The position numbers and the translations under genes were made by a program. Shown in pieces: positions 26,064-39,976 of a DNA stretch of 64,000 bases; positions within the stretch are counted from its first letter, which is position 1, and each line of letters begins with the position of its first letter. The stretch is from Shimia sp. CNT1-13L.2 (lineage in GTDB: Bacteria; Pseudomonadota; Alphaproteobacteria; Rhodobacterales; Rhodobacteraceae): NCBI RefSeq assembly GCF_024331145.1, contig NZ_JANDJO010000001.1, positions 372,001 to 436,000 of the forward strand, given 5' to 3'. Below the pieces are notes generated by a model. That model saw nothing but the letters and a program-made list of their open reading frames with translations. It searched no databases and had not been told where the DNA came from.

Positions 26064-26069
26064 GACCAA

Positions 26070-26102
26070 CTGGACCTATTTTGCAAAAAACTCTGGCCCT
26101 AT
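26070..26102 (+). promoter_or_regulatory. Paired TauR-like motifs upstream of xsc
   Basis: CTGGACCTATT (26070-26080) and CTGGCCCTAT (26093-26102) are spaced 23 bases start to start, the same spacing as at tpa. They begin seven bases after the tauR stop and suggest that xsc-tauZ has its own TauR-dependent promoter. Confidence 0.6.
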
Positions 26103-26179
26103 CGAGTAGCGCCAGTGAATCGTAAATTCGGGTTCAACAACAGCCAATTCCGCCGCGCGCGAACAAGGAGTGATTCCCC

Positions 26180-27955
26180 ATGAAAATGACCACCGAAGAG
26201 GCCTTTGTAAAAGTCCTTCAAATGCACGGCATCGAGCATGCCTTCGGGATCATCGGCTCAGCGATGATGCCTATCTCCGACATTTTCGGCGAAGCCGGGA
26301 TCACCTTCTGGGACTGTGCGCACGAAGGATCGGGCGGCATGATGGCTGACGGCTACACCCGCGCCACCGGCAAGATGTCGATGATGGTTGCCCAGAACGG
26401 CCCCGGCATCACCAACTTCGTGACCGCCGTCAAAACCGCCTACTGGAACCACACCCCGCTCTTGCTGGTCACTCCGCAGGCGGCCAACAAGACCATGGGT
26501 CAGGGCGGCTTCCAGGAAATGGAACAGATGCGCATGTTCGCCGATTGCGTCTGCTATCAGGAAGAAGTGCGTGATCCCTCGCGCATGGCGGAAGTCCTGA
26601 ACCGCGTCATCATGCAGGCCAAGCGCAACTCGGCCCCGGCCCAGATCAACGTGCCGCGTGACTACTTCACCCAGGTTGTCGATATCAACCTGCCCGCCAT
26701 CGTCGACTTCGAACGCCCCTCCGGCGGCGAAGAGGCCCTCGACGAGGCAGCGGCCCTGCTCTCCAGCGCCAAGTTCCCCGTCATCCTCAACGGTGCCGGC
26801 GTTGTCATCGGTGGCGCCATCGAAGCTTCCAAGGCTCTGGCCGAACGCCTCTCCGCCCCGGTCTGCTGCGGCTACCAGCACAACGATGCCTTCCCCGGCT
26901 CGCACCCGCTGTTTGCTGGCCCGCTCGGTTACAACGGCTCCAAGGCCGGTATGGAACTGATCTCCAAGGCCGACGTTGTTCTCGCTCTCGGCACCCGTCT
27001 GAACCCCTTCTCGACCCTGCCGGGCTATGGCATCGACTATTGGCCGACCGAAGCCAAGATCATCCAGGTCGACATCAACCCCGACCGCATTGGCCTGACC
27101 AAGCCGGTCACCGTCGGCATCGTCGGCGACGCCAAGAAAGTGGCCACCTCGATCCTCGAAAAGCTGTCGGACACCGCCGGTGACGAAGGTCGCGATGATC
27201 GCCTCAACCTGATCTCGACCACCAAGTCCGCGTGGGCCCAGCAACTGAGCTCGATGGACCACGAAGACGACGATCCGGGCACCACCTGGAACGAACGCGC
27301 CCGCGCTGACAAACCCGACTGGATGAGCCCCCGCATGGCGTGGCGCGCGATCCAGTCTGCCCTGCCGAAAGAGGCGATCATCTCCTCCGATATCGGCAAC
27401 AACTGCGCCATCGGCAACGCCTATCCGTCTTTTGAGGAAGGCCGCAAATACCTCGCCCCCGGCCTGTTCGGCCCCTGTGGCTATGGTCTGCCGTCGGTTG
27501 TCGGCGCGAAAATCGGCTGCCCTGATGTTCCGGTTGTCGGTTTCTCGGGTGACGGCGCATTCGGCATTGCCGTGACTGAACTCACCGCCATCGGCCGTGA
27601 AGAATGGCCCGCCGTGACCCAGGTTGTCTTCCGCAACTACCAATGGGGTGCCGAAAAGCGTAACTCGACCCTCTGGTTTGACGACAACTTCGTAGGCACC
27701 GAACTGGACACCCAGGTGTCCTATGCCGGCATCGCGCAGGCCTGCGGCCTCAAGGGTGTTGTCGCCCGCACCATGGACGAACTCACCGCCGCCCTGAGCC
27801 AGGCCGTGGAAGACCAGAAGAACGGTATCACCACCCTGATCGAAGCCATGATCAACCAGGAACTGGGTGAACCCTTCCGTCGCGATGCGATGAAAAACCC
27901 GGTCAAGGTTGCAGGCATCTCCAAAGACGACATGCGTCCGCAACAGGTAGGCTAA
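26180..27955 (+). CDS. xsc: Sulfoacetaldehyde acetyltransferase
   Basis: The protein has 591 residues, a thiamine-diphosphate enzyme. The N-terminal TPP domain has AFGIIGSAMMPISDIF, HEGSGGMMADGYTRATG and the activating Glu region. The C-terminal domain has GDGAFGIAVTELTAIGREEW followed by NYQWGAEKRN, the TPP/Mg motif. Xsc converts sulfoacetaldehyde and phosphate to acetyl phosphate and sulfite, the desulfonation step of taurine use. An AAGGAG site precedes the ATG. No phosphate acetyltransferase gene is present downstream. tauZ follows after one base. Confidence 0.96.
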   Translation: MKMTTEEAFVKVLQMHGIEHAFGIIGSAMMPISDIFGEAGITFWDCAHEGSGGMMADGYTRATGKMSMMVAQNGPGITNFVTAVKTAYWNHTPLLLVTPQAANKTMGQGGFQEMEQMRMFADCVCYQEEVRDPSRMAEVLNRVIMQAKRNSAPAQINVPRDYFTQVVDINLPAIVDFERPSGGEEALDEAAALLSSAKFPVILNGAGVVIGGAIEASKALAERLSAPVCCGYQHNDAFPGSHPLFAGPLGYNGSKAGMELISKADVVLALGTRLNPFSTLPGYGIDYWPTEAKIIQVDINPDRIGLTKPVTVGIVGDAKKVATSILEKLSDTAGDEGRDDRLNLISTTKSAWAQQLSSMDHEDDDPGTTWNERARADKPDWMSPRMAWRAIQSALPKEAIISSDIGNNCAIGNAYPSFEEGRKYLAPGLFGPCGYGLPSVVGAKIGCPDVPVVGFSGDGAFGIAVTELTAIGREEWPAVTQVVFRNYQWGAEKRNSTLWFDDNFVGTELDTQVSYAGIAQACGLKGVVARTMDELTAALSQAVEDQKNGITTLIEAMINQELGEPFRRDAMKNPVKVAGISKDDMRPQQVG

Positions 27956-27956
27956 G

Positions 27957-28967
27957 GTGAACATATCCATCGACCACTGGCGCGCTCAATCCAAAGAGTT
28001 GGCGCCAGGGGTAACCATGGCCGTGATCGTCGCGATCACGGCCAAATTTCTTGCAGAACACTATGGAACGCCCGCGATGCTGCTGGCGTTGCTGCTTGGG
28101 ATCGCCGTGAATTTCCTGGGCCAGGAAGGCCGTACTGTGCCCGGCGTTGCCTTTGGCGCACGGTCGCTGTTGCGCCTCGGGGTCGCCTTTCTGGGCGCAC
28201 GCATCAGCTTTGATCTGATGATGGGCCTTGGCCCAAGCGTTATCCTTCTCGTCGTTGCCGGGGTCGTGGCCACTATTGCCTTCGGTCTCGCGGTCTCGCG
28301 TTTCTTTGGTCACGCATGGCGCTTTGCCTTCCTGACCGCCGGATCAGTTGCCATCTGCGGTGCCTCCGCAGCCATGGCCATCTCCGCGATCCTGCCGCGG
28401 GACGAGCGCTCAGAGGAACGCCTGATCTTCACCGTGATGGGCGTCACGATCCTGTCGACCCTCGCCATGATCCTCTATCCCATCGCAGTCAGCGCGCTGG
28501 ACCTTTCCGAAGTACAGGGCGGGGTTTTCCTTGGCGGCACCATTCATGACGTCGCGCAGGTGGTCGGCGCCGGTTTCACCATTTCGGAAACCACCGGTGA
28601 CACGGCCACGCTGGTCAAACTGATCCGGGTTGCCATGCTTGCCCCGGTCGTGCTTGTCGCGTCGCTCCTCATCCGGCGCTTCGCGACCCTGCCAAGTGGT
28701 GAAAACTCGCCGCCGATCCTGCCGGGGTTCGTGATCGGGTTCCTTGTGCTGGCGTGTCTCAACACCCTGCACCTCGTCCCCGCCTTCGTCGTGGATATCC
28801 TCTCCACCGCCTCCCGCTGGCTCCTGCTGACGGCAATAGCAGCGGTCGGCATGAAGACAGACATCAAGCAACTTCTGAAAGTGGGCGGCGCGGCCATCGC
28901 GCTCCTGAGTTTTGAAACGCTCTTTATCGCCCTCTTCATCCTCGCCGGGATCAAGCTGCTAAGCTGA
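27957..28967 (+). CDS. tauZ: YeiH/TauZ-family membrane protein, probable sulfite or sulfate exporter
   Basis: A GTG start one base after the xsc stop gives 336 residues and about ten membrane helices. PF03601-like segments include AGSVAICGASAAMAISAI and LGGTIHDVAQVVGAGF. Homologues lie beside xsc in many sulfonate degraders and are thought to remove the sulfite or sulfate formed from the C-S bond. Coupling to xsc supports this role; transport itself is inferred. Confidence 0.87.
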   Translation: MNISIDHWRAQSKELAPGVTMAVIVAITAKFLAEHYGTPAMLLALLLGIAVNFLGQEGRTVPGVAFGARSLLRLGVAFLGARISFDLMMGLGPSVILLVVAGVVATIAFGLAVSRFFGHAWRFAFLTAGSVAICGASAAMAISAILPRDERSEERLIFTVMGVTILSTLAMILYPIAVSALDLSEVQGGVFLGGTIHDVAQVVGAGFTISETTGDTATLVKLIRVAMLAPVVLVASLLIRRFATLPSGENSPPILPGFVIGFLVLACLNTLHLVPAFVVDILSTASRWLLLTAIAAVGMKTDIKQLLKVGGAAIALLSFETLFIALFILAGIKLLS

Positions 28968-28984
28968 TCCCGACAGGGGCAACC

Positions 28985-29638
28985 TTACCTGCGCGGCTTG
29001 CTCTTCCAGGTGTCGAGCCAGCGGCGCAGGCGGCCCCGCTTTTCGGCAAGGTTGTCGCCCGCCGCTTCAAGGCTCTCGTTCACATCCTCCAGCACCGGAT
29101 CGATCCGCGCCTCGCGGAACCTGCGCCAGCGCACGTAAACCGCCCAGGCCACCGCGGCAAACAGGGTCAGGATAATGATGTTGAGCCAGGGAATGATCCG
29201 CACATCCGGCCCCGCGACGGCCTTTACACCCACCGCGTTGGGATAGATCGACAGGAACTCGTTGCGCCAGCCATAGTGCTTGATCGCCACCCAGTTCGGC
29301 GCCTCCTTGGTGGATTTCAGATCGGTCGCCTCGGCCTGAAGGTTCGCGGTGTCGAACTTGAAATACGGCGGCCAGCTCCAGCCAGTATCCTCGTTGCGAT
29401 AGACCATCGGGCGCTCGTTCTCATAGAACGCCTGGATGAAGAACACGTCGCGGTTCACCGTGCCCGTGGCATTGCCGGCATCCGGCGAGGACCAGAAGAT
29501 CGAGTTCTCGCCAAAGTCGATCCGCTTTTCATAGGTGTCGGCGATCCGGACAATATCGTTCTGCGGAAGCGTGTAGTGGAAGAACCCCGCCACGAAGACC
29601 CAGAACAGCCCCCAGAAAACCCATTTTACATAGACCAT
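28985..29638 (-). CDS. DUF1523-family membrane protein, last gene of the AAA+ cluster
   Basis: The protein has 217 residues. One N-terminal helix (VKWVFWGLFWVFVAGFF) is followed by an extracytoplasmic domain (about 25-150, with TYEKRIDFGENSIFWSSPDAG and a Trp-rich WSWPPYFKFDTANLQ), a second helix (LNIIILTLFAAVAWAVYV) and a basic cytoplasmic tail. This resembles DUF1523, of unknown function. It is the last of seven same-strand genes, 13 bases after its upstream neighbour, and convergent with tauZ. Confidence 0.75.
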   Translation of the reverse strand: MVYVKWVFWGLFWVFVAGFFHYTLPQNDIVRIADTYEKRIDFGENSIFWSSPDAGNATGTVNRDVFFIQAFYENERPMVYRNEDTGWSWPPYFKFDTANLQAEATDLKSTKEAPNWVAIKHYGWRNEFLSIYPNAVGVKAVAGPDVRIIPWLNIIILTLFAAVAWAVYVRWRRFREARIDPVLEDVNESLEAAGDNLAEKRGRLRRWLDTWKSKPRR

Positions 29639-29651
29639 ACCCTCGGCCCCC

Positions 29652-29918
29652 TTAGTGGAAATTCGTGAAATAGATCAAGGCGATCACAATGCAGACCGGC
29701 ACCACATAGACGCCAAGGATCAGCTTGCGGCGCAAAGACCCGTCATAGTCCTCAAGACCGGCCCGGACAAAGGCATCCCGGTCGCCGGTCATGCCCTCTT
29801 CCTCCCATTCCGCCTCGAGCTTTCCCCGCCGCACGGCGCGGGAATAGAACGACAGGCAGACATAGATCACCGTCAGGACGATGAAACCGATCACGCTCAG
29901 GCGCAGCAGTGCAAACAT
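29652..29918 (-). CDS. Small two-helix membrane protein
   Basis: The protein has 88 residues with helices near 5-25 (RLSVIGFIVLTVIYVCLSFY) and 65-84 (LILGVYVVPVCIVIALIYF). They flank a charged loop with EAEWEEEGMTGDRDAFVRAGLEDYDGSLRRK. A near-perfect AAGGAGGT site lies six bases before the ATG, suggesting strong translation. No family recognised. It lies between two genes of the cluster with gaps of 3 and 13 bases. Confidence 0.7.
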   Translation of the reverse strand: MFALLRLSVIGFIVLTVIYVCLSFYSRAVRRGKLEAEWEEEGMTGDRDAFVRAGLEDYDGSLRRKLILGVYVVPVCIVIALIYFTNFH

Positions 29919-29921
29919 CTT

Positions 29922-31265
29922 CTACCTCCTTACCGCGCCCCAGGGGCCAACACGCTGGATCAGGTCCTCGCGCGGTGGCTGTGGCGGGGTGTCCATCGGG
30001 GCATCATGCCCGAAAAGCGCCGCCCGCGCACCGGCCTTGTCCGCTTGATACTCGCGGTCGAGGAAATCCGCCACATAGGATTTCTTGGTCTCGCTCCACG
30101 TCGCATAGAGACGGTAGAAGACCTCCTTGTGACAGATGAACAGCTGCCGCACGTCCTTGGGCGCAAGCTCCGACAACAGCATGTTCACCAGATCCTGCTG
30201 CGGCCTGTCTGCGGCACGCAGCGTATAGAAATAGGCCGGATGATCCGAGGTGATGCGCGGCCACGGCCCACCGCTCTCGGCCCAGTTCAGCAACTGCCGC
30301 AGCCCGTGATACTCGGCCGGCAACTGGTCGGCGTGGTTGCGCGCCAAGGCGCGAATGTCCCGCCGTGTCGCCCCCGTCAGGTCCACACCCGCCTCCTGCG
30401 CCGCGTCAACCACGATGAAATCCATCTTCTGTCGCAGGATTGCCCCTGCATCAATGCCCCGCGCCTTCACGATCGGCTCGACCAGATCGTTCAGCTCAAG
30501 GAACCGCGCAATCCGGTTGCGCTCGGAAAAATCGAACCGGTGCTTGATCGGCAGCGCCCCAAGCGCCGCCGTGTCCTGCCGGGCAATCAGCGCCGGATGC
30601 TCGACCCCGCGAAACAGGTAGAGCCCGCCGAAATGCGCCGTCCAGAAATCCTCCTGCCCGAATTCCGCATGACGCAGCCGCACCGGGTTGCGGGTCACGT
30701 CTCCGGTACGTTTGGCCAGACCGATCATCTCGGCGATCAGCACATCATCGAACCAGGCGTCCTCCTCGTCCTTGAACCGGTCTACCATCCGGCCAAGCTG
30801 TTCGGCGTCGCGCAGCGTGCCCTCGGTGGTATCGGCCTCGACCACCACCTTGCGGATATCAAAAAGCCGCTCCGGCGCGCTGACCGAAAAGACCGAGTTC
30901 ACCAGCTCCCCCGCCACCGCATCCCGCGCGGTCAGGGCAAACAATTGCGGCTCGTTGTCGGTGATGAACTGCTTCAGGATCTCGCGACTGGTCGAGAACT
31001 TGGCATTCAGCAACGGCGCATGTCGCTGTTCCGTGGTCAACAGGATGAACTGCCGGTTACAGCCCCCGTGGTTGAGGTAGAGATGATCCTCCAGCTCGTC
31101 ACCGATCTCGGGGCTATAGCCCGAGATGTCGATGTGGAAATCCTCCAGCCCCGTGCGCTTGCCCGTCAGATGCTCCAACGCCCGGTTATAGCGTTCCACC
31201 AGCACCGGCGAAGACACCTCGATCAGGTTCCCAAACATCAGGCCGCGTTCAATCAGTCGGTGCAT
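29922..31265 (-). CDS. Conserved 447-residue protein of unknown function in the AAA+ cluster
   Basis: The protein has 447 residues, no signal peptide and no clear membrane helix, so it is probably cytoplasmic. Notable segments are HRLIERGLMFGNLIEVSSPVLVERYNRALEHLTG at the start, DISGYSPEIGDELEDHLYLNHGGCNRQFILLTTEQ (about 47-81), and a C-terminal part with FICHKEVFYRLYATWSETKKSYVADFLDREYQ. I believe it matches a Rhodobacterales family (possibly DUF6638), but not with certainty. It starts inside the end of the small membrane protein gene upstream (17-base overlap), so it is translationally coupled. Confidence 0.75.
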   Translation of the reverse strand: MHRLIERGLMFGNLIEVSSPVLVERYNRALEHLTGKRTGLEDFHIDISGYSPEIGDELEDHLYLNHGGCNRQFILLTTEQRHAPLLNAKFSTSREILKQFITDNEPQLFALTARDAVAGELVNSVFSVSAPERLFDIRKVVVEADTTEGTLRDAEQLGRMVDRFKDEEDAWFDDVLIAEMIGLAKRTGDVTRNPVRLRHAEFGQEDFWTAHFGGLYLFRGVEHPALIARQDTAALGALPIKHRFDFSERNRIARFLELNDLVEPIVKARGIDAGAILRQKMDFIVVDAAQEAGVDLTGATRRDIRALARNHADQLPAEYHGLRQLLNWAESGGPWPRITSDHPAYFYTLRAADRPQQDLVNMLLSELAPKDVRQLFICHKEVFYRLYATWSETKKSYVADFLDREYQADKAGARAALFGHDAPMDTPPQPPREDLIQRVGPWGAVRR

Positions 31266-31566
31266 CCGCTTTCCCTTTTCCTACTTTCCACCCCAACAGC
31301 GTCGCTGGAAACGCCAATAAACTCATCAGCAGGAATTGCATCCCCGCATAGTCCAAATGCTGCCGCAGCGATGCTTGACCATCCCGAGGGTCCAGGAAAT
31401 CTGCTGCCATCCAGCTAAGAAGGATCGCAATCACACCAACGGTTACCACGTACTCGAGAAGCACACTTTTAAAACGCCTATCATGCGTCCGAGCGCGGAG
31501 CGCCAGAAAGCCTCCGATGGGTGCTCCCAGCAGCATAGGCACAAAAAGAGCGATCAAACCGATCAT
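31249..31566 (-). CDS. Small membrane protein in the AAA+ cluster
   Basis: The ATG at 31566 (GGGAG six bases upstream) gives 105 residues; a TTG at 31647 would add 27 more without a good site. Three hydrophobic segments are visible: MIGLIALFVPMLLGAPIGGF, LEYVVTVGVIAILLSWMAA and AGMQFLLMSLLAFPATLLGW. The region is visibly lower in GC than its neighbours, a possible sign of relaxed constraint or transfer. It overlaps the next gene by 17 bases. No family recognised. Confidence 0.6.
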   Translation of the reverse strand: MIGLIALFVPMLLGAPIGGFLALRARTHDRRFKSVLLEYVVTVGVIAILLSWMAADFLDPRDGQASLRQHLDYAGMQFLLMSLLAFPATLLGWKVGKGKADAPTD

Positions 31567-31708
31567 GCAGTACTCCCAATTCGCCCGGCGCTTGCCGCCA
31601 GGCAGCGCCCGACCGCCCACATCAAACCTTTGGTTTGTCTCGGACAAAACGGCGGGCGCTTCTCGCCCACCCGCGGTCTGGCACTGCCCTGATGTTGCAC
31701 TTCACACA

Positions 31709-33643
31709 TCAGGATTTCCCCTCCAGATACCGCCGCTTGGCCTCTTCCTGGCGCTCATAGTCGCGCACCATATTCTCAATCGCCACCTCGTCCGACTTGT
31801 CCGCATAGCGGAACTCGGAATCCGCGTAGCGGTTGATCTCCTGCACCACCATCTCCACCGTGATCGGCACCCGCAGCGCCCCGATCATGTCCTTCTTGCG
31901 CTCATAGGGCTGGAACAGGAACAGCTCCGGGTTCTCCATCCACTCATCCGGCAGCTCAAAGTCCATCGCCCGCACCTTCACGGCGTCGGTGATGTTCTTG
32001 ATCGCCCGCCCGGTAAAACGCGGGTCGGCCTCCTGTATGCCCTTGAGATAGGCGCCCAGCTTGGCAATCGTGTCCAGTTCACCCACCTCGCCCGACACCC
32101 TGTCAAAGACGTTCATCAGCCCCACCTCCTGCGGCCGCCCATGCGCCTCGAAGGATTTTGCAACCGCCTTCTGGATCGCCTGCGCCTCGAACAGGTCATG
32201 GCTACCCAGCGGGATGTCATGGTTCTTGCCCATCAAAAGCGCGAGAATGTCGATATAGTCTTCGCGTGTCTGCGGACCATCCACGAGAAACCGCGCCCCG
32301 GCCCGCTGGCGCAGGGCATCGTCCACGTTTTCGGGATAGTTCGAGAACATGCCAAAGGTACAGTTGCCGCGCACCACCGTATTGGCCCCGGCAAAGGCCT
32401 CCATGAAGACCGCGGTCACCTCCTGCTGCCCCGCCGAAGACTGTCTGTCCCCGCGCTTGCCTGCGATCTGGTCGATGTCGTCAATGGTGCCAAAACCGAT
32501 CACCTGCGGGTCAAGCACGTTCTGAACAAAGGCCTTGGCATTCTGGCCCGACTTGCCCTGATAGCTGTCGATATTGTCGATGCCAAAGTTCTGATAGCGG
32601 AACGGATAACCCGCCGCGCCACAGTAGTCGTTGATCAGCCCGGCCATCATCTGGATCAGCGTCGTCTTGCCCGTGCCCGGCGCGCCATCCCCCATGAAGG
32701 TAAAGATGAACCCGCCCATCTCGGCAAAGGGGTTGAGGCGGCGATCGAAATCAAAGGCCATCAGCATCTTGGCCAACTTCATAGCCTGGTACTTGGCGAT
32801 ATGATTGCCCACCACCTCGTTGGGCTTTTTGAAACTCATGGTCAGGGTCGATCCCTTGCCCGCCCGCGCCGGGGTGAACCCGTTCAGCGTGAGGTCATCC
32901 GCCTCCACCCGCCAGCTCGCTCCCTCGAAGGCCCCAAGCCCCCCGGCATTCTGCGCCCGCAGGGTCACCTTTTCCATCACCTGCTCGGCAAAGGCACAGA
33001 CACAGGCCACCAGCCGCGCCTCATCCGTCACCAATGCCGCGATATCCTGATCCAGCTCCCACAACAGCCCGTGCAACGCCAGCTGGGCATTGTCGGTCAG
33101 AACCTCCTCGACCTCGCCCACCTCGACCGAGACCTCGCCAAGGTAGGGGGCCAGAAGAAACGCCGTGGCATTGGCAAAGACATGCGCCACCACCAGCGCC
33201 TCGGCAGTCAGCAACTCCGAAAACGCCGCCTTGCGATCCGCGCCCAGCGCGCCGGCAAGGTTGTCGCGTTTCATGTCATCCAGCCCCGAGGCCTCCGACA
33301 CGTTCTCCCCCACGGCCAGCGCGATGGCCAGCGCCCGGCGCAACCCGCTCATCACATTGGCCTGCACCGGCGACACCAGCGGGTCTTCCCCATCCGCCGC
33401 CTCGATCCGGTTGATCAGATGCACCCCTTCGGGCCGCGCAGTCGAACGCGTCACCAGCCCCGGTGTGGTCGACCGGAACCGCCGCCGCGTGGCCAGCCCG
33501 CTTGAGCGTTCCGGCGCCGCCATCTCGCGCCCCTTGGCTATCCGCGGCGTGTGGTCAAACCCGTCCAGCATCCCCACCGCCGCATCGTAATGCTTGCGAA
33601 TATCCTCTTCGCGCAGCTCCATCAGGTCACTTGTCAGGCTCAT
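31709..33643 (-). CDS. AAA+ ATPase of an uncharacterised Rhodobacterales cluster
   Basis: The protein has 644 residues. The N-terminal 300 residues have no clear family. The AAA+ core follows: Walker A GDGAPGTGKTT (318-328), Walker B VIGFGTIDDID (381-391, Asp388/Asp389), sensor-1 Asn435 in FGMFSNYPENVDDALRQRAG, and arginine-finger candidates Arg445-Arg451. A long C-terminal helical part has many charged residues. No membrane helix or protease motif is visible, so it is likely a cytoplasmic remodelling ATPase. Its gene neighbours suggest a coiled-coil or membrane partner as substrate. GGAG lies six bases before the ATG. Confidence 0.85.
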   Translation of the reverse strand: MSLTSDLMELREEDIRKHYDAAVGMLDGFDHTPRIAKGREMAAPERSSGLATRRRFRSTTPGLVTRSTARPEGVHLINRIEAADGEDPLVSPVQANVMSGLRRALAIALAVGENVSEASGLDDMKRDNLAGALGADRKAAFSELLTAEALVVAHVFANATAFLLAPYLGEVSVEVGEVEEVLTDNAQLALHGLLWELDQDIAALVTDEARLVACVCAFAEQVMEKVTLRAQNAGGLGAFEGASWRVEADDLTLNGFTPARAGKGSTLTMSFKKPNEVVGNHIAKYQAMKLAKMLMAFDFDRRLNPFAEMGGFIFTFMGDGAPGTGKTTLIQMMAGLINDYCGAAGYPFRYQNFGIDNIDSYQGKSGQNAKAFVQNVLDPQVIGFGTIDDIDQIAGKRGDRQSSAGQQEVTAVFMEAFAGANTVVRGNCTFGMFSNYPENVDDALRQRAGARFLVDGPQTREDYIDILALLMGKNHDIPLGSHDLFEAQAIQKAVAKSFEAHGRPQEVGLMNVFDRVSGEVGELDTIAKLGAYLKGIQEADPRFTGRAIKNITDAVKVRAMDFELPDEWMENPELFLFQPYERKKDMIGALRVPITVEMVVQEINRYADSEFRYADKSDEVAIENMVRDYERQEEAKRRYLEGKS

Positions 33644-33726
33644 CTCTCACTCCACAAAATTCCGCTCGGCATCTCTTCAATGCACCAAAAATACTCGCGC
33701 CGCAGGCATGGCGGCGCAGCCGCCCC

Positions 33727-34851
33727 TCAATAGCGCAGCACCCGCCCCTGCGGGCTCACCACATATTTCGTCACCGCCCCAAACCCCGGCGGGTTCAGCT
33801 CTTCCAGCACCTGAAACGGGCGCTGCGGCATGATGATACTGCGCTCGGTCCGCGTCGCGCCGGTGTCCACCCCGCGCCCCGAGAAGGGATCAAGCGCAAA
33901 CACCTCGCGCTCCACGGTCGAGAACCACCCCGCCCGCTCTTCGCGCACGCTTTCGCTTTCCAGATCCTCAACCGTCCAGGCCAGGGTCCAGTCCTCGCCC
34001 GCCGGGGCCCGCGCAGTCTCGAGCACATCCCGGATCGGCCCCTTCTGGCGGGTAAAGGCCGAGGAATACATCGGCCCCACGTGATACCGCTTAAGCCGCT
34101 TGGGATGCAGATCGTCGAAACTCTCGTCAAACCCCTTGGCAATCGTCACCAGTTTCAATCCCCCTAGGCTCTGCCCCATCAGGTGCGCCTGCGCCTCGGG
34201 CCAGCGCCGCTCGTCCTTGGGCAGCGCCGTGCGGCCGCTGTCCTCGACCTCCATGAGATAGAGCGTCGGCAGGTTGATCTGGCTGTCATAGACCGCCCAA
34301 TGTACCAGATAGCGACGCCGCCGTTCGCCCATAGTTTCCAGCCAAAGCGCCTCCGGATGGTTCTGTGCCCAGAACAGCTCGCCGCGCATCAGCTCTTCAT
34401 AATAAAGCCGCTGCGACAGCGCGAATTGCAGCTTGGTCGGAATCTCGCGCTCGCCGATGATCTTGCGCAGCATCTGGTCCTTCAGCGCCGCATCATCCGG
34501 CATGTTGCGCAAATGGCTGTCGGCCTGCTGTGCATCATTGGCCATGACCAGCAACTCGTTGAACACCGGAAAGCCGCTTTCGACCTCGTCCATCTGCAAC
34601 GAGCCAAAGAAACGCCCGGTCTCGCGCCCGACCAGCAGGTACTTCATGGCCAGCGCCTTGAAGGTAAAGGACAGCTGCACGAGATAGCGGGTCAGAACCT
34701 TGACCTCGGTCCCGCCCAAGCGCCCCTCCGCCGCCTGCGCCGCCGCCACCTGCGTCAGGTGCCCGGTGATCTTCTCGAACTTCTTGAAGTACCGCCGCGA
34801 CGCATAGGTGTCGCGCAGGGCCTTATGGTCCGCGGTTTGGGTCTCAGTCAT
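33727..34851 (-). CDS. 374-residue protein of unknown function in the AAA+ cluster
   Basis: The protein has 374 residues and is soluble, with no signal peptide. The first 180 residues look mostly helical and charged (HKALRDTYASRRYFKKFEKITGHLTQV, GEREIPTKLQFALSQRLYYEELMRGELFW). The rest looks beta-rich (WAVYDSQINLPTLYLMEVEDSG; LEELNPPGFGAVTKYVVSPQGRVLRY). I recognise no motif. It sits between the coiled-coil and ATPase genes on the same strand, with 83 bases to the ATPase start. A shared role with those proteins is inferred only from position. Confidence 0.75.
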   Translation of the reverse strand: MTETQTADHKALRDTYASRRYFKKFEKITGHLTQVAAAQAAEGRLGGTEVKVLTRYLVQLSFTFKALAMKYLLVGRETGRFFGSLQMDEVESGFPVFNELLVMANDAQQADSHLRNMPDDAALKDQMLRKIIGEREIPTKLQFALSQRLYYEELMRGELFWAQNHPEALWLETMGERRRRYLVHWAVYDSQINLPTLYLMEVEDSGRTALPKDERRWPEAQAHLMGQSLGGLKLVTIAKGFDESFDDLHPKRLKRYHVGPMYSSAFTRQKGPIRDVLETARAPAGEDWTLAWTVEDLESESVREERAGWFSTVEREVFALDPFSGRGVDTGATRTERSIIMPQRPFQVLEELNPPGFGAVTKYVVSPQGRVLRY

Positions 34852-34889
34852 TTTGGGTCACCGTTTTACCCTAGCATCATCCAGAATCC

Positions 34890-34945
34890 CCGGTTCGCTT
34901 GCGAACCGGATCGCGCCCGACCCCGCCCCCCAGGGCGGGTGCGAT
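34890..34945 (-). repeat. Two adjacent strong hairpins between cluster genes
   Basis: CCGGTTCG-CTTG-CGAACCGG is exact (34890-34909). Next to it ATCGC (34910-34914) and GCGAT (34941-34945) enclose CCCGCCC-CCCA-GGGCGGG (34922-34939). On the minus strand they lie downstream of the coiled-coil gene and upstream of the 374-residue gene, as expected for partial termination or mRNA processing. The 34852-35052 gap holds no gene. Confidence 0.55.
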
Positions 34946-35052
34946 TTTGAAACGGCCATGCCAAGCACGTCCGCCAAACAATCATGGCAGGCAACCACCA
35001 AGCAGACAGCCGCCCTCGGTGCCGGGCGCGATCCTGTGTTGATCACGCGCTC

Positions 35053-36129
35053 TTACGCCCCGTAAAGGTTCTTGTCGTGCTTCTCGACGATCTTCTGGAA
35101 CCGGCGGGCAAAGCGTTCATCCGCCTTGGCCTTGGCCTCCAGCACGTCACGGGCAAAGACCATGTGGCCCTCGTGCGCCTCGAGCATGTCCGCCATCCGC
35201 TGGTTTGTCGCCGTGCCAATCGCCGCCATCGAGGCCTGCGCCTCCTTGTCGGTCTCCACGCCGATCTCGTTGATCCTGTGCGCCACATCCTGCTGCTGCG
35301 CCGTCTTCAATGACTTGGTCAGCGCATCATACAGCACAACCCGCTGCTTGGTGTCTGTCTGCAACTTGTTGATCAGCACCATCTGCGTCGCCGCCTGGTT
35401 CTGCAACGAGTCGACCCAGGTCTTGCCCTTCTCGATATAGCGCTCCAGCGTCTGGCTCTTGGCGAGCTTCACCTGCTCCTGCTGCACCAGCTCGTTATAG
35501 GCCTTGTTCAGGTCCGCCAGCTCGGTCTCCAGCTTGGTACGGGCCGCCGCATCCTGTTCCACCGCGATCTTGTTCTCGACCTCGATGATCTTCGGGTCCA
35601 TGCCAAGAATCTCGGCCCGCAGGCTTTCCAGCTCACCCACCGTCATCTCGCGCTCGTCCAGCGTCTCGGTCAGGTTCGCCTCCACCTTTTCCTTCTGCTC
35701 GGTCAGCACGTTCAGCTGGCCTTCCAGAAGGTTGGTAATCACGTCCGACTTGGCAATCAGGTCCTGCAGCTTGTCGTCGATATTGGCGGTTTTCATCCGC
35801 TCCTGACGCATGCTCTCGGATTTGCCACGGCTGAAGATGCCGACAAAACTCTCCCAGCCGGTCTTGTCGCGCATCGCGTCGAAGTCCTTGGAAAAGGCCG
35901 CGGTCACGTCATCCAGCCCCATGATCAGCTCGGCGATGTTGGCATTCATCACGTCGGTATGGGCGTGCACGTCATCCAGCGTCGCATTCTCGATGTCGAT
36001 GGAAATGTCGTCACCGGTTTTCATCTTCGCCCGCGCGGTTTCGATCCGGCTGGTCAACTCGGCGATCTTGGCCTGCGCCGCCGCCACCTGTTCCTGGGAT
36101 TCGCGCACTTGTGATTCAAAATTTGCCAT
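35053..36129 (-). CDS. Long coiled-coil protein (TelA/PspA-like architecture), first gene of the AAA+ cluster
   Basis: The ATG at 36129 follows GGGAGAG and gives 358 residues. Nearly the whole protein is predicted helix with heptads and many Glu/Lys/Gln: FESQVRESQEQVAAAQAKIAEL, then LIAKSDVITNLLEGQLNVLTEQKEKVEANL and ELADLNKAYNELVQQEQVKLAKSQTLERYIEKG. It has no signal or membrane helix. The layout resembles toxic-anion-resistance (TelA) or PspA-type scaffolds, and relatives are sometimes labelled microtubule-binding proteins, but I see no decisive motif. As the first of seven co-directional genes, it may be the filament or scaffold on which the AAA+ ATPase acts. Confidence 0.8.
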   Translation of the reverse strand: MANFESQVRESQEQVAAAQAKIAELTSRIETARAKMKTGDDISIDIENATLDDVHAHTDVMNANIAELIMGLDDVTAAFSKDFDAMRDKTGWESFVGIFSRGKSESMRQERMKTANIDDKLQDLIAKSDVITNLLEGQLNVLTEQKEKVEANLTETLDEREMTVGELESLRAEILGMDPKIIEVENKIAVEQDAAARTKLETELADLNKAYNELVQQEQVKLAKSQTLERYIEKGKTWVDSLQNQAATQMVLINKLQTDTKQRVVLYDALTKSLKTAQQQDVAHRINEIGVETDKEAQASMAAIGTATNQRMADMLEAHEGHMVFARDVLEAKAKADERFARRFQKIVEKHDKNLYGA

Positions 36130-36271
36130 GAAACTCTCCCTTGTTCTCAATTAGTTGAGACGGATATGGGGAGTGTTAATCAGATTTACATCCACCCCGA
36201 TCCGCATTTGCCAAAAGTGTTGCAAATGCGCACTGCAAAGGAAAGGGATTGTTGGGTTTTGGGGGCGTAGC

Positions 36272-36709
36272 CTATGCCGCAGACTGCAGGTTCTTGCGCA
36301 ACTTGCGCAGGGACCCAAGCAATACGCGCAACTCTTCCATGTCCATGCCCGTTGCCTCGATCAGGCAGGTCTCGATCCCCTTGACCCTACTACGCAGGGC
36401 CCTGCCCTCAGACGTCAGAGAAACGCGGACGCGGCGCTCATCTTCCGGATCGCGCACACGCGTAACAAGACCTGCTTTCTCAAGTCGCTTCAACAGCGGG
36501 GTCAGGGTGTTCGACTCCAACCCAAGGCGTTTGCCGATGGCGCTCACGATCTGCCCATCCTCCTGCCACAACAGCAGCATTACAAGGAACTGCGGGTAGG
36601 TCAGGTTCATGTCCTTCAACATCCCCTTGTAGAGCCGCGTAAAGGCATGCTCGGTGTTGTAGACTTCGAAACAGATCATCTCGTCCAGTATGTCGCGTGT
36701 CCCGGTCAT
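36272..36709 (-). CDS. ohrR: MarR-family regulator, OhrR-type
   Basis: The ATG at 36709 (GGAGCTGCC upstream) gives 145 residues; the longer frame to 36832 runs through the operator and is unlikely. The winged helix is clear (LTYPQFLVMLLLWQEDGQIVSAIGKRLGLESNTLTPLLKRLEKAGLV, then RVRDPEDERRVRVSLT). A cysteine near the N-terminus (Cys14, EMICFEVYNTEHAF) matches the peroxide-sensing Cys of OhrR. It would repress ohr until organic hydroperoxide oxidises that Cys. It is divergent from ohr. Confidence 0.9.
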   Translation of the reverse strand: MTGTRDILDEMICFEVYNTEHAFTRLYKGMLKDMNLTYPQFLVMLLLWQEDGQIVSAIGKRLGLESNTLTPLLKRLEKAGLVTRVRDPEDERRVRVSLTSEGRALRSRVKGIETCLIEATGMDMEELRVLLGSLRKLRKNLQSAA

Positions 36710-36734
36710 GGCAGCTCCTTTCAGTGCCTTAAAT

Positions 36735-36813
36735 AAATCGCACACGACCAAATCGCAACTATTGACGAATCGTGCACGACATTTTACATCGCTCACAATT
36801 AAATCGCACACGA
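36735..36813. promoter_or_regulatory. Multi-site OhrR operator between ohrR and ohr
   Basis: The 13-base motif AAATCGCACACGA occurs twice in direct orientation, at 36735-36747 and 36801-36813. A palindrome TCGTGCACGA lies between them at 36770-36779. All three share the ACGA/TCGT core and sit in the ohrR-ohr divergent region. Confidence 0.65.
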
Positions 36814-36830
36814 TATAAATGGAGACACCC

Positions 36831-37259
36831 ATGCTTGCCCAAACTCTCTACACCACCTCCGCAACGGCAACCGGCGGTCGCGAAGGCCGTGCCGTATCGC
36901 AGGATGGCCTGCTGGACGTCGCGCTCTCCACTCCCAAGGAACTGGGCGGCGCAGGCGGTGAAGGCACCAACCCCGAACAGATGTTCGCTGCCGGCTATGC
37001 GGCGTGCTTCCTGTCGGCACTCAAGTTCATCGCGATGCAGCAAAAAATCGCCCTACCCTCGGATGCAGAGGTCACGACATCGGTCGGCATCGGCCCGCGC
37101 AAGGACGAGCCCGGCTTTGCCCTCGAGGTTGGCCTCAAGGTCGCCCTGCCCGGCGTTGATCGCGACGTGGCGGAAAAACTTGTTGCTCTCGCGCATGAAA
37201 CCTGCCCCTACAGCAACGCCACCCGCGGTGCGTTGGACATCACGCCGGTATTGGCCTGA
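36831..37259 (+). CDS. ohr: Organic hydroperoxide resistance protein Ohr
   Basis: The ATG at 36831 has GGAG six bases upstream and gives 142 residues, the usual Ohr length. The two catalytic cysteines sit in the expected places: AAGYAACFLSAL and AHETCPYSNATRG. Ohr reduces organic hydroperoxides with lipoylated proteins as electron donors. The divergent OhrR and the repeated operator motifs between them support inducible expression. Confidence 0.95.
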   Translation: MLAQTLYTTSATATGGREGRAVSQDGLLDVALSTPKELGGAGGEGTNPEQMFAAGYAACFLSALKFIAMQQKIALPSDAEVTTSVGIGPRKDEPGFALEVGLKVALPGVDRDVAEKLVALAHETCPYSNATRGALDITPVLA

Positions 37260-37405
37260 TCCACGGCCAATGCTCTCCCGGGGCCCGCGACATGCGGGCC
37301 TCTGAATCATCTTCCCCGCCTCCCTCGTCGATGCTATATCTACGCCTCGAGCACACGGCGATGGCGTCGCCGGAGAGCGCGTTTGCTCTTGCCGCATTTC
37401 ATGTT

Positions 37406-37472
37406 CCTGTACGCCGGGACTTTCAATCGGGAGATTGAAGGCCCCGCTGCCCTCTCCCGCAGAACAGGAGAG
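37406..37472 (+). promoter_or_regulatory. Structured leader of the amidinotransferase gene with a sequestered ribosome-binding site
   Basis: The AGGAG site (37466-37470) can pair in two exclusive ways: ACAGG with CCTGT (37406-37410), or GGAGAG (37467-37472) with CTCTCC (37452-37457). Between them CTTTCAATC-GGGA-GATTGAAGG (37420-37441) forms a stable hairpin. The 218-base region upstream of the start (37260-37477) holds no gene and further small hairpins. A riboswitch or translational attenuator is plausible; I match no known class. Confidence 0.45.
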
Positions 37473-37477
37473 CGTTC

Positions 37478-38599
37478 ATGGCCTGGTCGCCGGACAAAAC
37501 CGAAGTCAAAAGCTGGAACGAATGGGACACGCTGCGCCACGTGATCGTGGGGCGTGCCGATGATTGCCACATCCCGCCGGAAGAACCCGCACTCGATGCA
37601 AAAGTGCCGGAAGACAGCGACATGCGCGGCCAATGGGGCCGCCGCCCGCAGGAAACCATCGACCGCGCCAACGAACTGCTCGACGGCTTTGCCGATCAGC
37701 TGCGCAAACGCGGCATCCGCGTCGACCGCCCGACACCGATCGACCATTCGCTGCCCGCCACCACCCCAGATTTTCACACCGACAGCCAGTTCGGCTGCAT
37801 GCCGCCGCGCGACGTGCTGCTGACCGTCGGCCACGAAATCCTCGAAGCCACCATGTCCTACCGCTGCCGCTGGTTCGAATACCTGAACTACCGCCCGCTC
37901 ATGCAGCAATACTGGGACGAAGACCCGAACTTCCGCCACGAGGCCGCCCCCAAGCCGCGCCTGACAGACGCGGATTATCACCCCGACTACCTGTCCGAGA
38001 AAATCGGCGTGGCGCAGCGCCTGAAATGGGCCGAAGAGAAATTCTTTGTCACCACCGAGGAAGAACCGCTTTTTGATGCTGCCGACGTGCTGCGTTTCGG
38101 CAAGGACCTGGTGGTGCAACACGGCTTTACCACCAACCTCAAGGGCATCGAATGGCTGCGCCGTCACTTCCCGGAGCACCGCGTGCACACGGTGAACTTC
38201 CCCGGCGATCCCTACCCGATCCACATCGACGCCACCTTTACCCCGCTGCGCCCGGGTCTGATCCTGAACAACCCGCAACGCCGCCTGCCGGAAGAACAGC
38301 GCGAGATGTTCAACAGGAACGGCTGGGAAATCGTCGACTCGGCCCAGCCCGCCCACAACACCCCGCCGCCGCTGTGCTATTCCTCGACCTGGCTGTCGAT
38401 GAACGTGCTGGTGCTTGATCCGAAAACCGTCTGTGTTGAAAAGTCCGAAGTCTACCAGGCCGAACAGATGGACAAGCTGGGCATGGAAGTGGTCGAAGTC
38501 GACCTGCGCGACGCCTATGCCTTTGGCGGCGGCCTGCACTGCTGTACCGCCGATGTCTACCGCGACGGCGACTGCGAGGATTACTTCCCCAAGCAGTAA
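37478..38599 (+). CDS. L-arginine:glycine amidinotransferase family enzyme
   Basis: The protein has 373 residues and closely follows animal AGAT. The catalytic set is present: Asp203 in FDAADVLRFG, His249 and Asp251 in PIHIDATF, and Cys355 in GGGLHCCTADV. GIEWLRRHFPEHRVH and SSTWLSMNVLVLD are also typical. AGAT moves the amidino group of arginine to glycine, giving guanidinoacetate and ornithine; related enzymes use other amine acceptors. The gene is convergent with a creatinase gene, so a guanidino-compound pathway is likely. The acceptor specificity cannot be read from sequence. Confidence 0.9.
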   Translation: MAWSPDKTEVKSWNEWDTLRHVIVGRADDCHIPPEEPALDAKVPEDSDMRGQWGRRPQETIDRANELLDGFADQLRKRGIRVDRPTPIDHSLPATTPDFHTDSQFGCMPPRDVLLTVGHEILEATMSYRCRWFEYLNYRPLMQQYWDEDPNFRHEAAPKPRLTDADYHPDYLSEKIGVAQRLKWAEEKFFVTTEEEPLFDAADVLRFGKDLVVQHGFTTNLKGIEWLRRHFPEHRVHTVNFPGDPYPIHIDATFTPLRPGLILNNPQRRLPEEQREMFNRNGWEIVDSAQPAHNTPPPLCYSSTWLSMNVLVLDPKTVCVEKSEVYQAEQMDKLGMEVVEVDLRDAYAFGGGLHCCTADVYRDGDCEDYFPKQ

Positions 38600-38623
38600 G
38601 CCACGGATAGTCACAAACACGCA

Positions 38624-38653
38624 AAAGCCGCGCCCCCCGGACGCGGCTTTTTT
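38624..38653 (+). terminator. Rho-independent terminator of the amidinotransferase gene
   Basis: AAAGCCGCG and CGCGGCTTT form a nine-pair stem around a nine-base loop, followed by TTT, 25 bases after the stop codon. Confidence 0.9.
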
Positions 38654-38675
38654 CGATCCCCTCAACGCATAGCGT

Positions 38676-38722
38676 GCAAGAAAATTCGAATTTTCTTGCC
38701 AAGGGTTTTCGAAAACCCTTGG
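38676..38722. repeat. Two abutting perfect 24-base palindromes
   Basis: Positions 38676-38699 and 38699-38722 are each exact palindromes with a central TTCGAA, sharing one base. One has an A/T-rich arm (AGAAAATTCGAATTTTCT), the other AGGGTTTTCGAAAACCCT. They stand between the convergent amidinotransferase and creatinase genes, after a normal terminator. They probably form back-to-back hairpins and act as a bidirectional terminator or an interspersed repeat. Confidence 0.75.
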
Positions 38723-38731
38723 CCCGTTCCG

Positions 38732-39976
38732 TCAGCCGACGACGTTGAACGCTGGCCCGTAAGGGTAGCCGGTGATGTTCTCGTTGCCGTCTTCGGTGAT
38801 CACCAGGATGTCATGCTCTCGGTAGCCACCTGCCCCCGGTTTGCCGTCGGCAATGGTCAGCATCGGCTCCATCGAGATCACCATGCCCGGCTCAAGCACC
38901 GTGTCGATGTCTTCACGCAGTTCCAGACCGGCCTCGCGTCCGTAGTAGTGCGACAGCACACCAAACGAGTGGCCATAGCCAAAGGTGCGATACTGAAGCA
39001 TGTCACGCTCGGCAAAGAACGCGTTGATCTTGTGGGTGATCTCGGCACAGCTCGCCCCCGGCTTCAGCAGGGAAATACCCAGCTCGTGCGCGCCGACATT
39101 GGCTTCCCAATAGCGCAGGCTCGCCTCATCCACCTCTTTCACGAACATGGTCCGCTCCAGCGCAGTGTAATAGCCAGAGATCATCGGGAAGGTGTTCAGC
39201 GACAGGATATCACCCCGTTCAAGAACGCGCCCCGTCACCGGGTTATGCGCCCCGTCGGTGTTGATGCCCGACTGGAACCAGACCCAGGTGTCGCGATATT
39301 CGGCATCCGGGAACCGCTTGGCGATCTCCAGCTCCATCGCGTCGCGGCCCGCCATTGCCACGTCGATCTCGCGCACACCTTCCTTGACGGCATCGCGGAT
39401 CGCATAGCCACCCACGTCGGCCACCGCCGCGCCTGCGCGGATCATCTCGATTTCGGCCGCCGACTTATGCATACGCTGCCGCATGGTGGCTTCATACAGG
39501 TCCACGGTCTTCGACGGCGACAGGAAGGCGTCGAGCTTGGCTTTCTGCATCAGGCTCAGGTGGTCACCCTCATAACCGATCACACGACCCGAGCCGGAAA
39601 CGCTCTCGATTGCCCGCCAGTAGTTGTCGCGCTGCCAGTCGGTATAGGTGATGTTGTCGCCATAGCAACGGCGCCACGGCTGACCGGCATCAATCCCCGC
39701 CGAGATGGTAACACAGGCGCTCTCGGTCACGACAAGCGCATAGGGCCGCCCAAAAGCGCAATAGGTGAAGCCCGAGTAATAGGAAATGTTGTGCATCGAC
39801 GAAAACACCGCCGCGTCGACACCCTGTTCGGCCATGATCTTGCGCAGGCCCGCGACACGCGCCGCGTATTCGTCATCGGAAAACTGCAAACCGGCCTTTT
39901 CTCCGTTGTGGAAACGATAGAAATCCGGGCGTGCAGCCGCCGCATCAAGATCTTGGTAACGAGGAATAGCAGTCAT
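38732..39976 (-). CDS. Creatinase (M24 peptidase-fold creatine amidinohydrolase)
   Basis: The protein has 414 residues, matching Pseudomonas creatinase in length and in long blocks: HNISYYSGFTYCAFGRPYAL, FQSGINTDGAHNPVT with the catalytic His, MISGYYTALERTMF, TFGYGHSFGVLSHYYGREAG and EPMLTIADGKPGAGGYREHD. Unlike true M24 peptidases it lacks the five metal ligands. Creatinase hydrolyses creatine to sarcosine and urea. GGAGGT lies four bases before the ATG. It is convergent with the amidinotransferase gene; guanidinoacetate is a possible alternative substrate. Confidence 0.9.
   Translation of the reverse strand: MTAIPRYQDLDAAAARPDFYRFHNGEKAGLQFSDDEYAARVAGLRKIMAEQGVDAAVFSSMHNISYYSGFTYCAFGRPYALVVTESACVTISAGIDAGQPWRRCYGDNITYTDWQRDNYWRAIESVSGSGRVIGYEGDHLSLMQKAKLDAFLSPSKTVDLYEATMRQRMHKSAAEIEMIRAGAAVADVGGYAIRDAVKEGVREIDVAMAGRDAMELEIAKRFPDAEYRDTWVWFQSGINTDGAHNPVTGRVLERGDILSLNTFPMISGYYTALERTMFVKEVDEASLRYWEANVGAHELGISLLKPGASCAEITHKINAFFAERDMLQYRTFGYGHSFGVLSHYYGREAGLELREDIDTVLEPGMVISMEPMLTIADGKPGAGGYREHDILVITEDGNENITGYPYGPAFNVVG

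Follow-up and report, generated by a model that had tools for sequence, protein, structure and literature searches.

The stretch of DNA considered here, called the window below, comprises 64,000 nucleotides of Shimia sp. CNT1-13L.2 (contig NZ_JANDJO010000001.1, positions 372,001 to 436,000; all coordinates are those of the window) and carries a cluster of seven minus-strand open reading frames (ORFs), A to G, that spans 36129-28985 and was confirmed gene by gene in an ORF check of the window. A (35053..36129) encodes a 358-residue coiled-coil protein, predicted to be an all-helical scaffold, B (33727..34851) a soluble α/β protein of 374 residues, and C (31709..33643) a 644-residue protein with a C-terminal AAA+ domain (PF00004). 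The small membrane protein D (31249..31566 for 105 residues, or as called from 31647 for 132 residues) stands in a variable slot between C and E (31266..31708, 443 bp in the window), and is followed by E (29922..31265; 447 residues, PF20343), F (29652..29918; 88 residues with two hydrophobic segments) and G (28985..29638; 217 residues, PF07509, hydrophobic at residues 1-22 and 145-172). Pfam assigns E to DUF6638 (E=5e-253) and G to DUF1523 (E=5e-70), while A, B and D give nothing above the Pfam cut-off and F has no Pfam match at E≤0.01. Hydrophobic segments are present in D, F and G, with none in A, B or E; D and E overlap by 17 bases, and gaps of 3 and 13 bases separate E from F and F from G. 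A preliminary description of this DNA had listed seven same-strand genes of these sizes, three of them for membrane proteins and two pairs overlapping or nearly touching, none with a clear function, and in all of this it was right, E and G nonetheless being assignable to DUF6638 and DUF1523. Its treatment of the cluster as a single unit of seven is wrong: the conserved core has six genes, A, B, C, E, F and G, and D is a gene of the variable slot.

The order A-B-C-E-F-G is more than chance. DUF6638 was found in 69 of the 149 genomes of the organism's own family, and of the 40 of these for which flanks were fetched, 38 have the six genes complete and in order; in the other two (L032 and L071) E-F-G alone remains. 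When named genomes were scanned with the A alignment, at least 551 relatives were confirmed, and among the best 80 of these (the named loci) the complete order is found in 68. Eight of the incomplete named loci (L078, L088, L094, L112, L116, L131, L141 and L151) lie on records of at most 17 kb that end near the genes, L145 runs into a contig end and L079 is cut by the limit of the sequence fetched, F alone gives no match in L108, and L133 has transposase-like ORFs after B. The nearest relatives found among the best 80 are from Shimia, with A 92% identical. A is the most conserved member (72-92% identity in two Rhodobacterales alignments; the six other alignment sets were built from hand-picked rows), and in pairwise identity A, B, C and E correlate with one another at r 0.66-0.81, the correlations between the core and F or G being looser (r 0.49-0.59). 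Further afield, A-B-C-E occurs in L180, L181, L227, L228 and the Rhizobiaceae, and large plasmids of Vibrio parahaemolyticus and V. vulnificus carry A-B-C-E without F/G. Many bacteria of the sea and of soil keep the set. Its distribution is patchy, since A occurs in 28 of 398 sampled genomes of the phylum (14 of them of the own family) and DUF6638 above cut-off in seven of 385 genomes of the class, own genome included. The operon type of one family, f10, and the likeness of its proteins to those of Sinorhizobium lead us to take it for the Rhizobiaceae. There A or a diverged form, A′, is present in 125 of 199 genomes; of 20 regions fetched from these 125 genomes, 8 were diverged and 12 ordinary. 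Pattern-based scans of viral contigs for relatives of A or C, which would have pointed to a phage origin, gave none. Since relatives keep the genes together, and no independent function is known for any of them, the candidate undescribed cellular system of the preliminary description proves to be a real, conserved and uncharacterised gene system. No paper on DUF6638 was found in an open-access library, and no description of the gene set was found there in the material consulted, that on DUF1523 and DUF2333 included.

The most informative variation lies in A. In ten loci (L186, L192 and L265-L272) the diverged A′, at 16-32% identity to the A of the window or of Sinorhizobium meliloti, stands directly before a DUF2333 gene, and the fetched stretches contain no B, C or E (C elsewhere in these genomes was not searched for). 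A block at residues 273-307 of A (SLKTAQQQDVAHRINEIGVETDKEAQASMAAIGTA; 35209..35313, minus strand) and a C-terminal tail at residues 350-356 (KHDKNLY; 35062..35082, minus strand), which shows the same pattern of presence and absence in the general form KHxxxxY, are both missing from all ten A′ proteins, whereas both are present in 139 of the 139 A proteins from loci with C. These comprise the A proteins of 121 main-set loci that have both A and C, another 14 (L273-L284, Vibrio and S. meliloti) and 4 more (L227, L228, L230 and L231), and include at least six same-genome pairs. In A′ of the Rhizobium type, the sequence immediately before the block continues to align well (SQRRERFI..VDSLN...LLRKL.ID.EERLIIYQ); it is followed by a 22-residue gap and the remainder of the block is unmatched. 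Each of the A′ genomes searched has a single A-like match at E≤1e-8, so a second full operon in them is unlikely. On this comparison of sequences we read the block and tail as the probable contact of A with a B-C-E module, and the remainder of A as the part that may work with a membrane protein.

The membrane genes also differ between lineages. In the Rhizobiaceae the order is A-B-C-E-DUF2333, with DUF2333 (assigned by Pfam in two of the Rhizobiaceae proteins) standing where F/G would be, and no F or G match was found in the Rhizobiaceae operons examined. Because DUF2333 replaces F/G there, the cytosolic core A-B-C-E can be said to precede different membrane modules. A search of the own genome for DUF2333 gave no match, nor did the control genomes in the same search. 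L181 and L228 have G with no match to F. An exchange of F/G types between lineages was also considered and set aside, the clustering having given no clean types.

That C is an AAA+ ATPase with Walker motifs, as the preliminary description had it, is borne out by PF00004 (E=3e-11; 44.3 bits against a cut-off of 21.2). Walker A (GDGAPGTGKT, residues 318-327; 32663..32692, minus strand), Walker B (D388, D389 and D391 within FGTIDDID, residues 384-391), N435, R445/R447 and the stretch Y361-Q362-G363 are unchanged in all 13 divergent rows compared. In the HMMER alignment the Y-Q-G stretch falls on a loop in the pore-loop region of the FtsH-type AAA domain of an i-AAA protease (PDB 5ubv), the one PDB entry that the C profile matches in sequence at E≤1e-3 (E=3e-4). 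In classic AAA proteins the corresponding loop is the substrate-gripping pore loop. The N-terminal 300 or so residues of C have no Pfam match, and the protein has neither a clear membrane anchor nor a match to a protease domain; its likeness to the i-AAA/FtsH type is one of AAA-domain sequence. Structure prediction, named as a check in the preliminary description, gave a confident model of B (predicted local distance difference test, pLDDT, 87.9), with a helical N-terminal part followed by long strands, that lacks a trustworthy structural counterpart: there is no PDB match at E≤1e-3, and the lone BFVD match below 1e-3 has a template modelling score of 0.09. B likewise has no Pfam match. The model of A, with four helices (4-38, 51-95, 103-190 and 194-351), is weak (pLDDT 69, predicted template modelling score, pTM, 0.52) and has no PDB match at E≤1e-3; its best PDB matches, helical bundles and pore-forming-toxin helices, have E above 1e-3 and are not taken as kinship.

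These features can be assembled into a modular three-part machine whose AAA+ ATPase would reset a helical scaffold held at the inner membrane, a reading to which we give an about even chance. The scaffold would be A; the cytosolic ATPase module B-C-E would consist of the classic-type AAA+ protein C with B and E as its partners; and the membrane module, F+G in the Rhodobacterales and DUF2333 in the Rhizobiaceae, would hold the scaffold at the inner membrane. C would recognize A through block 273-307 and the KHxxxxY tail and pull A subunits from their assembly, thereby resetting the scaffold, while D, in the accessory slot, would be dispensable for the core. Since we read the block and tail (139/139 versus 0/10) as the contact with B-C-E, the most likely action of C is to remodel A at the membrane. 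In this scheme A would polymerize, C would act on A and not on B, E or the membrane protein, and the membrane module would serve as an anchor; a purpose in maintaining the envelope under stress is a guess.

Several observations weigh against such a machine. The tree calls for two losses and is compatible with a single one, so the ten A′ loci cannot be counted as ten independent losses. A′ has diverged throughout (16-32% identity), and the block may have gone as one part of a wider relaxation of constraint. In L133 an ordinary A (84% identity) and B are found, though with no C within 10 kb. The proposed contact of A could also be with B or E, not C. Polymerization of A is unsupported because its model is weak, and the copies in Vibrio and L231 have no recognized membrane partner.

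The slot occupied by D requires separate consideration. Across 111 distinct loci the C-E gap reaches at least 100 bp in 106 and at least 500 bp in 73, and junctions of at least 300 bp are found at C-E in 89/111 loci, at A-B in 32/111 and at B-C in 8/111 (not every long A-B or B-C junction holds a convincing gene), with 0/102 at E-F and at F-G. The slot has a lower G+C than C in 77 of 97 cases where it measures at least 200 bp and in 59 of 68 where it measures at least 600 bp, and the 136 slot ORFs, some of them read-through frames, fall into 71 similarity clusters. Turnover is fast: counting plus-strand slot ORFs of at least 100 residues, called as longest ORFs without a gene finder, a homologous slot ORF is shared by 3 of 21 locus pairs with C at least 95% identical, by 5 of 29 pairs with C 90-95% identical, and by 1 of 28 pairs among eight close Aliiroseovarius-group loci (L087, L093, L095, L098, L099, L100, L107 and L140). 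Four loci have an empty slot: the overlap of C and E measures 4 bases in L083, L180 and L181 and a single base in L053. In Vibrio the slot is absent. Recognized contents include Mrr, putAbiC, AbiJ_NTD4, HNH, RNase_T, PIN_10 with DUF433, DUF2971, DUF3825, HATPase, DUF559, Hint and GNAT, together with many small membrane proteins. A family of two-transmembrane proteins with 12 slot members has matches in 8 of the 149 family genomes, four of them slot copies that served as query rows and four lying outside the slot, the latter in genomes that include the own genome and two without a DUF6638 match. Overlaps of the form ATGA at both slot ends are frequent, but are partly forced by the sequence of the C end and E start and are not used as evidence.

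We therefore treat D as the present occupant of an accessory insertion position outside the conserved core. Its start is more likely the internal ATG at 31566 (105 residues) than 31647 (132 residues), because the only slot relative found (L073) starts there and the sequence upstream holds a 40-base repeat (31651..31690, minus strand) overlapping a terminator-like hairpin (31651-31671, minus strand); two weak further copies of the repeat occur in the genome (83% and 79%; E 1.5e-4 and 0.006). Among the slots themselves, those of L045, L046, L048, L066, L072, L082, L105, L107, L126, L132, L136 and L140 encode a common membrane start (PNEVGDTLAG...ELREQR) followed by C-terminal parts that differ widely, one being putAbiC. 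Filled Rhizobiaceae slots are often DUF559 endonuclease-like (L182, L184, L185, L187, L191, L280 and L284), and in S. meliloti Ak57 an insertion element of the IS4 type adjoins the slot DUF559 gene. The largest insert seen, of 5 kb, is that of L079 (15300-20140), with metabolic-looking reductase-like and transketolase-like ORFs named by reading. We consider it rather probable that the slot is a passive insertion site, where foreign genes are cheap and persist or disappear independently of the core. Its low G+C and mixed content, the empty slots, the copies of one family elsewhere in genomes and the occasional length of the A-B and B-C junctions are all consistent with this. The concentration of inserts at the single junction C-E, mostly on the operon strand, and their absence from E-F and F-G argue in the opposite direction.

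As regards the function of the core, C with B and E as adaptors might instead be a chaperone that assembles or quality-controls the membrane module, F/G or DUF2333, with A presenting these proteins to it and not serving as substrate. The membrane genes do stand directly behind E in both module types (the E-F gap has a median of 2 bp and the F-G gap of 11 bp, and DUF2333 follows E). Yet DUF2333 persists in loci without B, C and E, at 65-94% identity to the R. leguminosarum copy in the other nine of these ten loci, and where these genes are gone it must be independent of the ATPase; Vibrio, conversely, keeps A-B-C-E without a recognized F, G or DUF2333. A chaperone for the membrane module is accordingly unlikely.

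The combination of a helical scaffold, a classic-type AAA+ protein and membrane proteins resembles ESCRT-III/Snf7-Vps4 of archaea and eukaryotes and PspA with its AAA+ partners (PMC11237479), but B and E have no counterpart found in those systems, and the gene set is not described in the accessible part of that paper. A likeness to PspA, TelA and ESCRT-III/Vps4 had been proposed in the preliminary description; what stands of it is the logic of scaffold, AAA+ protein and membrane, which the co-loss pattern and the Y-Q-G motif support, while membership is not supported by sequence. A has no PF04012-type Pfam match and reaches an hhalign probability of 2.8% against a nine-sequence PspA profile, the own genome has no PspA match, and C matches neither MIT nor Vps4_C up to E=1 in Pfam. 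The comparison with ESCRT is one of logic, not descent. TelA (PF05816) shares with A a soluble, helical make-up and a similar length, and one could suppose that A is a distant member of the TelA superfamily and the operon a Ter/Tel-like stress system. The sole hhalign match contains a short W-E-x-x-x-G correspondence, but its probability is 1.1% (against a shallow TelA profile; both hhalign comparisons were run with a reversed-sequence control), A has no TelA Pfam match and sits at a different locus, and a clear TelA gene lies on another contig of the same genome (G000:C7:102334-103317). We regard a TelA-superfamily origin of A as quite improbable.

Could the whole locus serve in anti-phage defence, the core being a constant sensor and the slot supplying interchangeable effectors? 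The Mrr, putAbiC, AbiJ_NTD4, HNH, RNase_T and PIN_10/DUF433 genes, the fast turnover and the low G+C of the slot would fit. For the Pfam and PADLOC scans, 55 of the 78 slot ORFs of at least 140 residues were compared with a control set of 55 of 63 flanking ORFs (the 23 slot ORFs dropped by eye were mostly minus-strand or read-through-looking frames, plus the three metabolic ORFs of L079). At best E≤1e-15 the slot set gives mREase_IV, PDC-S02, DEDDh, PDC-S48 and PDC-S31 and the control set only HTH_VI, five model groups against one; at E≤1e-3, however, the two sets match 24 and 22 models, and an enrichment of putative defence genes in the slot is therefore only suggestive. The core itself evolves slowly and does not correspond to a known anti-phage system in PADLOC 2.0.0, where C has only weak AAA-domain matches (TRIP13 at 1.5e-4, IetA at 0.03) and A, B, D, E, F and G have no match up to E=0.1. 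With slots that are empty (L053, L083, L180 and L181), missing (Vibrio), metabolic (L079) or filled by GNAT, and with one slot family also found outside the slot in two genomes lacking a DUF6638 match, a dedicated anti-phage role for the locus is very doubtful. We see just as slight a chance for a composite arrangement, in which unrelated A, B, C and E would perform an ESCRT-III/Vps4-like scaffold disassembly with exchangeable membrane modules, and the slot would be a plug-in position for recently acquired, often anti-phage, membrane or nuclease proteins that are co-expressed with the core and perhaps controlled by it.

Upstream of A the window contains a dyad-like promoter element (GATGTAAATCTGATTAACACT; 36172..36192, minus strand), 42 bases from the start of the gene. 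Within the own genome, this operon is the sole place where GATGTAAA-N6-TWACAYT matches exactly; one further match, with a single mismatch, lies at L226 (G000:C9:288660-288680), which adjoins small RDD-like and DUF2852-like ORFs named by reading. ATGTAAA occurs in 52 of 120 regions upstream of A, against 1.6 in shuffles, and ATGTA(A/T)...(T/G)AACA in 41 of 120, always spanning 18 bases and mostly about 40-45 bases from the start codon; related dyad forms are visible in other upstream regions. There is no full-site enrichment for LexA, RpoH, extracytoplasmic function (ECF) sigma factors or RpoN in these regions, the full CtrA site is found in 2/120 (0.7 in shuffles) and its half site TTAAC in 45/120 (21.6), and no regulator is recognized within the core. 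PMC3687685 lists, in a ChvI context, a single DNA fragment from within SMc02733; as we only presume this gene to belong to the operon, the entry is not used here as evidence for regulation by ChvI. Hairpins are present in the window at the B-C and C-D junctions, but conserved internal terminators were rejected as rare across loci (A-B 4/93 against 4.4 expected, B-C 7/94 against 1.2, C-E 8/107 against 2.6); terminators after G are found in 18 of 104 loci against 1.0 expected. No known RNA family reaches its gathering score in 28000-37500.

Directly upstream of A lie a MarR-like gene and a divergent OsmC-like gene (36272-37259). L076, L105, L118 and L119 have the same pair in this position, and in L051 a gene for an amidinotransferase stands between it and A. 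The cluster is further adjoined, at 37478-39976, by a gene resembling amidinotransferases and, convergent with it, one resembling creatinases/aminopeptidases; relatives of the former are also seen close to A in ten other loci (L049, L051, L064, L080, L104, L115, L123, L126, L138 and L148). On the other side, the plus-strand genes at 24606-28967 read from their sequence as a MocR-type regulator, a thiamine pyrophosphate (TPP) enzyme and a YeiH-like membrane protein, and look like a sulfonate (taurine/sulfoacetaldehyde) set.

The A-B-C-E core and its alternative membrane modules thus constitute an uncharacterized gene set, in which DUF6638, DUF1523 and DUF2333, the Pfam families of E, G and the Rhizobiaceae partner, are all functionally uncharacterized, and which is widely retained both in the family of Shimia (DUF6638 in 69/149 genomes) and in f10 (A or A′ in 125/199). 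It offers a clear, testable candidate contact site in A and a natural series of losses, and new accessory and defence genes may be sought in the C-E slot. If C does disassemble A, the two would form an AAA+/helical-scaffold pair outside the PspA/ESCRT-III line, and one that would be workable in model rhizobia.

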